DNA of 64,000 nucleotides, taken from the NCBI RefSeq assembly GCF_011492945.1, contig NZ_CP045119.1:682001-746000 (forward strand). Reading direction: 5' to 3'. The notes beneath the pieces were generated by a model. That model worked only from the letters and a program-made list of their open reading frames with translations, had not been told where the DNA came from and did no database searches. The number at the start of each line of letters is the position of its first letter. The stretch's first letter is position 1. Source of the stretch: Rubrobacter tropicus (GTDB lineage: Bacteria; Actinomycetota; Rubrobacteria; Rubrobacterales; Rubrobacteraceae). The position numbers and the translations under genes were made by a program. Below are positions 18,362-19,705 of this stretch, piece after piece.

Positions 18362-18535
18362 CTGTCAGCAATCAGCCCGCTACGGCCTGCGGCCTCCGCT
18401 CTCAGCCTTCAGCTCCCGGTCTTGCAGGCGCACTCCATCCTGCAAAAGTCTTGCTCTCGGTGCGGTGGCGCAGGAAGTACGGTTTCGTCAAAAGGTTTCA
18501 GCTGATAGCTGACGGCTAAAAGCTGAAAGCTATAA
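18358..18535. repeat. heptamer array after cinA
   Basis: tagctgtcagcaatcagc at the stop codon, then cagccttcagct, and inverted gctgatagctgacggctaaaagctgaaagc at the end. The middle shows no gene. Confidence 0.75.
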
Positions 18536-18543
18536 AACATCTC

Positions 18544-18572
18544 TTGCCGCGTGTCTATTGCGGTAGTAGAAT
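18544..18572 (+). promoter_or_regulatory. sigma-70 promoter of the structured RNA
   Basis: TTGCCG (18544-18549), a 17-base spacer and TAGAAT (18567-18572) predict transcription from about 18580. Confidence 0.75.
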
Positions 18573-18579
18573 CCTCGCT

Positions 18580-18813
18580 AGTCGAAAGCACGCGAGAGGA
18601 GGTGATCCAGATAGACGCATCGAGCAGTAGTAGCCGCGGGTATCTTCTGGGAGAGGTGGCTCTGACCTAGCCCCACCTAAATCCCATGTGGGATCCTGGG
18701 TTATCTCTAATCCGCCTCTCTGGTTGTTTAGGCGGACGTGCTAGAAACAAGGATACCTGCGCAAGGCTCAAATGGGTACGGCCCCCGGATCTTCTCCGGG
18801 GGCTCGTTTTTTT
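18580..18813 (+). ncRNA. stand-alone structured RNA with 14-nt complement of the 16S rRNA 3' end
   Basis: A region of about 234 nt with its own promoter and a strong terminator but no credible gene. AGGAGGTGATCCAG (18597-18610) is the exact complement of the conserved 16S 3' terminus (CUGGAUCACCUCCU), an extended Shine-Dalgarno. Helices follow: AGGTGG/CCACCT (18654-18659 with 18673-18678), ATCCC/GGGAT (18681-18694), TCCGCCT/AGGCGGA (18711-18717 with 18730-18736) and the terminator stem. A 19-codon reading frame beginning with ATA at 18611 is correctly placed after the SD-like element but lacks a normal start. It does not match tmRNA, RNase P or SRP cores. A raiA-type RNA is one family to test. 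Function unknown. Confidence 0.65.
18781..18813 (+). terminator. rho-independent terminator of the structured RNA
   Basis: GCCCCCGGA (18781-18789) pairs with TCCGGGGGC (18795-18803) over a 5-base loop, followed by TCG and a seven-T run. Confidence 0.9.
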
Positions 18814-18847: not shown

Positions 18848-19171
18848 CTACGCTTCGTCCACGTAAGCGACCTCGTAAAGGTGGGGCTCGAAACTCTCCG
18901 CCAGCCCCGCGGCTTGTCTCATGTGTCCCACGGCTGCCGGGTCTTCTAGCATCGCCTCGAACGCCTCCTTGCTCCGCCACTGGGCGTAGTTGACGACGCG
19001 GGTGCCGTCGAAGCTCTTGTGCAAGTTGGCCGACACGAACCCCGGCCGCCGGTTCATGACCGACTCGGTCGCCTCCACGAGCAGGTCGAGCAAAGGCTGC
19101 TGATCTTCGGGCCTTACGGTGAACACGTTGATCAGGGTCACGACGTTACCACTCTGCGAGATCTCGGCCAC
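18848..19171 (-). CDS. antibiotic biosynthesis monooxygenase (ABM) domain protein
   Basis: 107 residues forming one ferredoxin-like ABM domain: VVTLINVFTVRPEDQQPLLDLL, then RPGFVSANLHKSFDGTRVVNYAQWRSKEAFEAM. ABM proteins are cofactor-free oxygenases or haem degraders; the substrate is unknown. It is divergent from a MarR-type regulator 78 bases away, and a palindrome lies between them, so MarR control is likely. Confidence 0.85.
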   Translation of the reverse strand: MAEISQSGNVVTLINVFTVRPEDQQPLLDLLVEATESVMNRRPGFVSANLHKSFDGTRVVNYAQWRSKEAFEAMLEDPAAVGHMRQAAGLAESFEPHLYEVAYVDEA

Positions 19172-19193
19172 GTATGCTCCTCTATGTCGAATT

Positions 19194-19209
19194 TATCAGT
19201 GTACTGATA
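19194..19209. promoter_or_regulatory. operator in the ABM/MarR divergent region
   Basis: TATCAGT-GT-ACTGATA is a perfect 7-2-7 inverted repeat in an AT-rich stretch (TATTATATAA follows). A related half site TATTGATA lies at 19221-19228. It is the likely MarR binding site. Confidence 0.6.
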
Positions 19210-19249
19210 TTATATAAGGGTATTGATAATAAGAAAGGGGCAAAATCCG

Positions 19250-19705
19250 ATGGTCGAGGACGGGACGCGGCGGCGGATCGGCTATCAGATGAAGCGGGCG
19301 CAGCACGCGTTGCGGCTGGCGATGGACGCGGCGGTCCGGGATCTGGGGTTGACGACGCCGCAGTACGCGGCGCTCGCCGTCTTGGAGGGGGAAGCGGGGT
19401 TGTCGGGGGCGGGGCTGGCGCGGAGGTGCTTCGTGACGCCGCAGACTATGAACGGGATCCTGGCGAAACTGGAGGGTGCCGGGCTCGTCGAGCGTCGACG
19501 GCATCCGGAGCACGGGCGTGTACTGCAGGCTTACCTTACGGAGACCGGAGGTGCGGTCGTCTCGCGGGCCCACGCGCTCGTGGAGGCCGTGGAAGGGCGC
19601 ATGCTAGAAGGCCTCACGGAGCACGAGCGGGGGCGTCTTTTAGTCGTGCTTCGTGGCTGCGCCGAAGCACTGGAGCGCGACGATGGGCGGGCGGGGTTAC
19701 CCTAA
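19250..19705 (+). CDS. MarR family transcriptional regulator
   Basis: About 151 residues with a MarR winged helix: LGLTTPQYAALAVLEGE, LARRCFVTPQTMNGILAKLEGAGLVERR (recognition helix), and the wing HPEHGRVLQAYLTETGG. Dimerisation helices lie at both ends. ATG at 19250 follows AAAGGGG; an in-frame TTG at 19223 is possible. It probably represses itself and the divergent ABM gene through the palindrome at 19194. Confidence 0.88.
   Translation: MVEDGTRRRIGYQMKRAQHALRLAMDAAVRDLGLTTPQYAALAVLEGEAGLSGAGLARRCFVTPQTMNGILAKLEGAGLVERRRHPEHGRVLQAYLTETGGAVVSRAHALVEAVEGRMLEGLTEHERGRLLVVLRGCAEALERDDGRAGLP

Follow-up and report, generated by a model that had tools for sequence, protein, structure and literature searches.

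The sequence analysed is a 64,000-nt stretch of the Rubrobacter tropicus genome (hereafter the window; coordinates are positions in it, on the + strand unless stated otherwise). Downstream of cinA, and on the same strand, there is a putative RNA gene whose predicted transcript, with both ends deduced from the promoter and the terminator, comprises ~232 nt (18580–18811); the gene that follows is convergent. The predicted promoter (18544–18572) consists of a −35 box, TTGCCG, a 17-nt spacer and a −10 box, TAGAAT, with 9/12 matches, and is conserved in 34 homologues. The RNA would end at an intrinsic terminator (18780–18811), formed by a conserved and covarying GC-rich stem (18780–18804) followed by the T run CGTTTTTTT. 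In an alignment of 34 loci the promoter boxes, a block complementary to 16S rRNA and the terminator are conserved, and the stretches between them are variable. The promoter with its 17-bp spacing, the terminator and the opposing genes on either side had already been proposed in a first-pass annotation made from the letters of the window, and all three are borne out by the sequence.

The gene cinA is also found upstream in most loci of the Rubrobacteraceae, and the downstream gene is variable and often convergent; this arrangement indicates that the RNA of this family is a stand-alone gene. The loci of other families, described below, have different neighbour genes (named by eye), with downstream genes on either strand. 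In the window, downstream of the RNA, two divergently oriented genes (18848–19705) code for a monooxygenase-type protein (− strand) and a MarR-like regulator (+ strand), both named by eye, and a self-similar stretch (AGCTGATAGCTGACGGCT...; 18496–18517), without a further copy in the window, lies between cinA and the promoter. Two other RNA features were recognised at a distance, a c-di-GMP-I riboswitch aptamer (2448–2527, − strand; 45.8 bits, exceeding the cut-off) and a tRNA gene (2730–2802, − strand; 68.5 bits).

The 16S rRNA complement and the fold in Rubrobacteraceae

Close to its 5′ end the RNA contains GAGAGGAGGTGATCCAG (18594–18610), a 17-nt complement of the 16S rRNA tail and the predicted Shine-Dalgarno sequence of a mini-ORF. 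The 14-mer AGGAGGTGATCCAG (18597–18610) within it has no other exact copy in the window, and in the 4.58-Mb genome it occurs in only two exact copies, one at the RNA locus and one complementary to the 16S 3′ end, GCGGCTGGATCACCTCCTTTCT. The first-pass annotation had claimed a complement of 14 nt, which is real and conserved; the pairing exceeds that claim and can be lengthened to 17 nt (GARAGGAGGTGATCCAG opposite CUGGAUCACCUCCUUUC), with a computed energy of −30 kcal/mol for the duplex of the window RNA and the 16S tail. Across the Rubrobacteraceae alignment the block reads GARAGGAGGUGAUCCAG, facing CUGGAUCACCUCCUUUC; since its variable positions are only A or G opposite U, every variant of the block still pairs with 16S rRNA.

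A DNA search identified the RNA in 38 of the 39 Rubrobacteraceae genomes, in 22/22 of those of good quality and in 13/13 genera, Rubrobacter taiwanensis and R. marinus being among the named carriers; the sole genome without it is 60 % complete. There is nearly always one copy per genome. Genome G060 contains two copies of equal score (L132 and L133), each on its own contig, one of which may be a duplicate arising from assembly.

No family of Rfam 15, the raiA motif included, reaches its gathering score at the window locus or at 18 loci of other families. The locus is neither tmRNA nor RNase P RNA, both of which have proper copies elsewhere in the genome. The 6S RNA model (RF00013) had no match at the locus or, at E ≤ 1, in the whole genome, with controls that were matched; the model for the raiA motif (RF03072) was likewise unmatched at the locus, its best match in the genome, situated elsewhere, scoring 11.3 bits against a cut-off of 101.3. 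The best sub-threshold match, which aligned mainly the shared block, was that of CC2171 (RF01867), at 13 bits (cut-off 75). These covariance model searches agree with the initial description of the locus as an orphan RNA distinct from tmRNA, RNase P and 6S RNA, and leave no Rfam family that explains it.

When folded as a single sequence the RNA is only mildly unusual (z-score −2.05), and its structure was therefore judged by comparison. The comparative structure contains helices P1c, P1b, P1, P2, P3 and P4, together with a pseudoknot helix, P0. Pairs were counted in an alignment of 36 distinct sequences that was made with a model, fitted to the nested helices and hence favouring them (P0 lies outside that model); 96.9 % of the cells are paired, against 27–47 % with partners slid. 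Doubly changed pairs number 8 (shuffle mean 4.0) and doubly changed cells 22 (shuffle mean 7.9), values that were reached by 0 of 500 shuffles, and compensatory changes are present in each of P0, P1c, P1b, P1 and P2. The internal helices seen at the outset, for which a search for homologues and for covariation had been advised, are thus corroborated: the RNA is conserved in the family and its comparative fold, pseudoknot included, shows compensatory changes.

Helix P0 pairs AGCACG (18587–18592), directly 5′ of the 16S-complementary block, with CGTGCT (18737–18742), situated 3′ of P2, and forms a pseudoknot with P1; 99.1 % of its cells are paired, its outer pair changes from A-U to G-C, and locus L035 carries the compensatory form GGCACA/UGUGCC. 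P1c (18616–18621, pairing with GGTACG, 18775–18780) is the weakest helix, with 84.7 % of cells paired and one position that is usually C·A. P1b (GAGC, 18622–18625, with GCTC, 18766–18769) is 100 % paired with compensatory change, and reads GAGU/ACUC in most relatives; P1 (GCGGGTATC, 18636–18644, with GATACCTGC, 18752–18760) is also 100 % paired, with compensatory change at two pairs. The 5′ strand of P2 (GAGAGGTGG, 18651–18659, with CCGCCTCTC, 18712–18720; 97.2 % paired, compensatory in L034) includes GAGGUG, the second conserved motif of the RNA class, and that of P3 (TGACCTAG, 18663–18670, with CTGGGTTA, 18696–18703; 99.0 % paired) includes the stop codon of the mini-ORF. Since P0 crosses P1, the 16S-complementary block is left unpaired in the model, between the strands of P0 and P1c. 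Sequestration of the block by CCGCCUCUC was considered and rejected as the main state, being 83 % paired, without covariation, and with one position that never pairs. Separately, the CCGCC of the P2 3′ strand can alternatively pair with GGCGG (18731–18735) in a hairpin (18712–18735) that competes with P2 and abuts P0; this hairpin is nearly invariant and so carries no covariation information.

Related RNAs in other families and their predicted mini-ORF

Outside the Rubrobacteraceae, a covariance model of their RNA (R1) produced weak matches only, and those of low score in genomes G113, G208 and G130 looked like chance. The matches in G078 and G266, from one genus of family f27, were real and opened a wider class; both share AGAAAGGAGGTGGTCCAGATAGAC, an upstream −10 box and a GGAGGUGG helix, and a DNA search in that class located the RNA in about 15 f27 genomes. 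With a second model, built from f27 only (R2), 36 of the 39 Rubrobacteraceae genomes gave a match precisely at the RNA locus, with E values ranging from 7.7e-7 to about 5e-3; this model also pointed to additional families. The pattern AAAGGAGGTGGTCC, followed by AGGT within 14–44 nt, is present in 73 of the 396 phylum genomes, nearly always at a single place, although conservation of the block in this set is not independent, because the pattern is conditioned on the Shine-Dalgarno block; the reversed pattern, used as a control, gave about 4 matches in all. The exact pattern was not found in some large-genome families of the phylum, which divergence may explain. In one f27 genome whose 16S tail is readable, it is the universal GGAUCACCUCC, so that the GGUGGUCC form of the block there would pair with one G·U.

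The details of the fold vary by family, P0 being a pseudoknot in Rubrobacteraceae and a local hairpin elsewhere. In most families the strands immediately 5′ of the block and immediately 5′ of GAGGUG pair with each other, and for this cross-family P0 the energy of the own pairs was below that of all 300 between-family swaps. A second long-range helix, occupying the place of the Rubrobacteraceae P1, pairs xyzGACN before GAGGUG with N′GUCz′y′x′ in the 3′ part of the RNA (for example, CGUGACC/GGUCACG, UGUGACG/CGUCACA and AGGACC/GGUCCU). In a test of P1 restricted to GACN/NGUC, own pairs scored above all 2000 swaps; an unrestricted test of the best contiguous helix in the other families did not discriminate between them (own 15.4, swapped 14.3, maximum 16.0). 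The RNA of one family (L211, G048:C5) is situated just upstream of a tRNA gene, read by eye as tRNA-Glu, and the corynebacterial CoRP RNA, which binds RNA polymerase, likewise lies among tRNA-Gln/Glu genes (PMC11077062).

The predicted mini-ORF of the window (18611–18670; IDASSSSSRGYLLGEVALT) starts with ATA, 8 nt past AGGAGG, and extends for 19 codons to a TAG stop (18668–18670). Among the related loci the stop is kept as TAG, as TAA (L024) or, together with a 1-nt insertion, as TGA (L150). In Rubrobacteraceae the start is always ATA or ATC and the frame has 18–19 codons. This family alone provides weak evidence for a mini-ORF, and it is the sequences of other families that settle its anatomy. 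Among 121 loci from 26 families, 119 have a start-type codon (AUG, GUG, UUG, CUG, AUA, AUU or AUC) situated 8–13 nt past AGGAGG that opens a frame of 10–19 codons with its stop at a common place, which in the other families is just past the GGAGGUG motif. The family-weighted score of this arrangement is 25.7 out of 26; neighbouring windows for the start score 0.7, 6.3 and 2.6, and the shuffle expectation is 2.5. Since the 8–13 nt window was chosen post hoc, and shared descent among relatives inflates the statistics, we attach no formal probability to these values.

The frame in which GGAGGUG is read varies by family, as Glu-Val in most and as Gly-Gly in f27, f14, f43 and f57, and start and stop remain in frame despite this variation. 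As a result of the shift the predicted peptide is entirely different between families, even if EVxGR-like C-terminal endings recur in many of them. Changes at the three codon positions number 17/10/22 in Rubrobacteraceae and 24/21/27 in a second family, with 11/17 and 17/32 distinct synonymous/nonsynonymous replacements, respectively. Conservation of the peptide as the driver is unsupported, given these near-neutral counts and the differences between families. Judged from the alignments, the block complementary to 16S rRNA is an extreme Shine-Dalgarno sequence for a predicted mini-ORF whose existence, rather than its peptide, is conserved.

The first-pass annotation had offered a choice between a ribosome-associated regulatory RNA and a leader for a 19-codon peptide starting at ATA. 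The anatomy of that predicted frame is strongly supported by the starts and the common stop of its relatives, and the choice itself proves needless, the 16S complement being the putative Shine-Dalgarno sequence of the mini-ORF. A ribosome-associated regulatory RNA is still a plausible reading. The term leader does not hold, because there is no conserved same-strand gene beyond the terminator.

Possible roles of the RNA

We consider it highly probable that the locus contains the Rubrobacteraceae member of an undescribed actinobacterial RNA class with a genuine mini-ORF. The best explanation of the observations as a whole, to which we give about an even chance of being correct, is that of such a class together with a ribosome-coupled switch; the mechanism itself, in which ribosome engagement would toggle the fold, is a reasonable possibility that we hold to be a little less than evenly likely.

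Complementarity of such length to the anti-Shine-Dalgarno sequence holds 30S subunits strongly. The 15–17-nt complement of the 16S tail would recruit these subunits and bind them very strongly, with a slow release into elongation as the regulated step. Translation would start at the AUA, 8 nt downstream, and proceed through 19 codons to a stop within the fold. Since the 5′ strands of P1c, P1b, P1, P2 and P3 are all part of the ORF, an elongating ribosome and the folded RNA would be mutually exclusive; a passing ribosome would open P1, P2 and P3, giving two states of the RNA, one folded, with a parked or absent 30S subunit, and the other translated and opened. IF3 selects against initiation at AUA, AUC and AUU, infC being an example, and the use of these near-cognate codons by many members would make the RNA sensitive to the conditions of initiation. 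A role in sensing IF3 cannot be general, as many families start with AUG, GUG or UUG. Candidate outputs are the holding or freeing of 30S subunits, or the exposing or hiding of the downstream half of the RNA, and in the Rubrobacteraceae and their actinobacterial relatives the RNA may couple this switch to the state of the ribosome. More speculatively, and with a rather low expectation of being right, the class might consist of phylum-wide RNA switches that sense initiation, with a near-full partner of the 16S tail and often a poor start, in which one ribosome moving over 10–19 codons rewires the fold and reports ribosome or initiation-factor status without an adjacent regulated gene.

Alternatively, the RNA could be a 30S decoy of the hibernation type, whose exposed block would hold the subunit through the 16S tail and whose ORF would be incidental or a trace of a P-site codon. 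A complement of the full single-stranded 16S tail that has no second copy in the genome apart from the rRNA and forms a duplex of −30 kcal/mol would suit a decoy, as would a block left unpaired between P0 and P1c in the model and a poor start codon such as AUA. However, the in-frame start and stop kept in 119/121 loci of 26 families, despite changes in length and frame, would be needless for this purpose, and many families have an AUG start, so that we regard a simple decoy as unlikely. A dual-function small RNA, whose 3′ half would regulate mRNAs and be freed or protected by translation of the mini-ORF, seems to us no more probable than the decoy. It would be consistent with a stand-alone gene ending in a terminator, with an ORF and helices that use common strands, and with the nearly invariant CCGCC/GGCGG hairpin, which could form once P2 opens, but the 3′ half is structured, and we identified no conserved, unstructured seed of the kind that pairs with targets.

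The conserved in-frame start and stop, the near-perfect Shine-Dalgarno sequence and the EVxGR-like endings recurring in many families would also fit an ordinary micropeptide gene, with a peptide of 10–19 residues as its product and the fold as an expression device; nevertheless, peptides wholly different between families (EV.. as opposed to GG..) and codon-position counts near neutral make this improbable. We give even less credence to an RNA-polymerase-binding RNA of the 6S/Ms1 kind. Its closing stem, asymmetric bubble and long inner stem resemble those of 6S RNA, for which the genome has no match, and actinobacteria use diverse RNAs that bind the polymerase (PMC11077062). Yet the 6S model is unmatched, the HAD-IB hydrolase/oxidoreductase synteny of Ms1 (PMC9130861) is absent, with cinA in its place in Rubrobacteraceae and other genes elsewhere, and neither the 16S complement nor the mini-ORF would have a role. 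Finally, a leader or attenuator of a downstream gene is scarcely credible and was rejected, for although the anatomy fits (promoter, competing helices, terminator, and a short ORF that keeps its start and its stop in one frame in 119/121 loci from 26 families), the next gene is convergent in the window, no conserved same-strand gene follows the terminator in the window, in Rubrobacteraceae or in the other families, and downstream genes that differ in kind and lie on either strand make attenuation of a neighbour unlikely.

The preferred reading, an RNA class coupled to the ribosome through its mini-ORF, would have several consequences if the RNA is real and expressed. It would be kept across many actinobacterial families, yet missing from Rfam 15, and in Rubrobacteraceae it would be as universal as a housekeeping RNA. 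It would also constitute a natural, long-conserved RNA addressing the whole single-stranded 16S rRNA tail, with a short ORF maintained because it is translated and not for the sake of its peptide, and RNA-based sensing of free 30S subunits or of initiation-factor status would become directly testable.

Comparison with known RNAs

Searches of the open literature returned no paper on a Rubrobacter 6S RNA, none in which the block in its GGUGGUCC form is a motif of bacterial RNAs, and none with the recurring peptide endings; the GGTGATCC form occurs in 918 papers and, among the matches listed, corresponded mostly to 16S primers. The main text of two surveys of structured RNAs makes no mention of Rubrobacter. 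Among the kinds of RNA described in the body of open papers, none matched a stand-alone RNA of this sort, without a conserved peptide or a regulated neighbour.

RNAs of the SgrS/SR1 type have conserved functional peptides and known base-pairing targets. These dual-function sRNAs are likewise small and stand-alone, with a short ORF, whereas neither a conserved peptide nor known targets were seen for the RNA described here. The Caulobacter sRNA CC2171 (RF01867) shares with it GAAAGGAGGUGAUCCAG near the 5′ end and a terminator-like 3′ stem, but has little in common outside the block in the alignment to window positions 18586–18707; from its sequence, CC2171 may be an independent or distant alphaproteobacterial counterpart. 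To our knowledge, no 16S complement or ORF exists in the raiA motif RNA. This RNA, also called ModT (RF03072; PMC11751092, PMC11706538), is similar in being compact, pseudoknotted and stand-alone, although its pseudoknot pk-1 links a stem loop with a junction loop and here the 5′ strand pairs across P1. The actinobacterial RNAs Ms1, MTS2823 and scr3559 (PMC4191392, PMC9130861) are also stand-alone and structured, with their own promoter and terminator, and measure 300 nt, as against about 230 nt here. Their neighbours differ, the context of Ms1 being a HAD-IB hydrolase (PMC9130861), and the papers on Ms1 (PMC4191392, PMC9130861) mention no Shine-Dalgarno sequence.

The uORF motifs and leader attenuators, such as those of ilvB and fthC (PMC11109978), are alike in possessing a short ORF with a Shine-Dalgarno sequence, alternative helices that the ORF overlaps, and a terminator. 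In contrast to them, the RNA described here is found without a regulated downstream gene and its peptide is unconserved, its predicted Shine-Dalgarno sequence complements the whole 16S tail, and near-cognate starts are common. The Shine-Dalgarno sequence, the short ORF, the competing helices and the terminator are each familiar elements; what appears to be new is their combination in a phylum-wide, stand-alone RNA.
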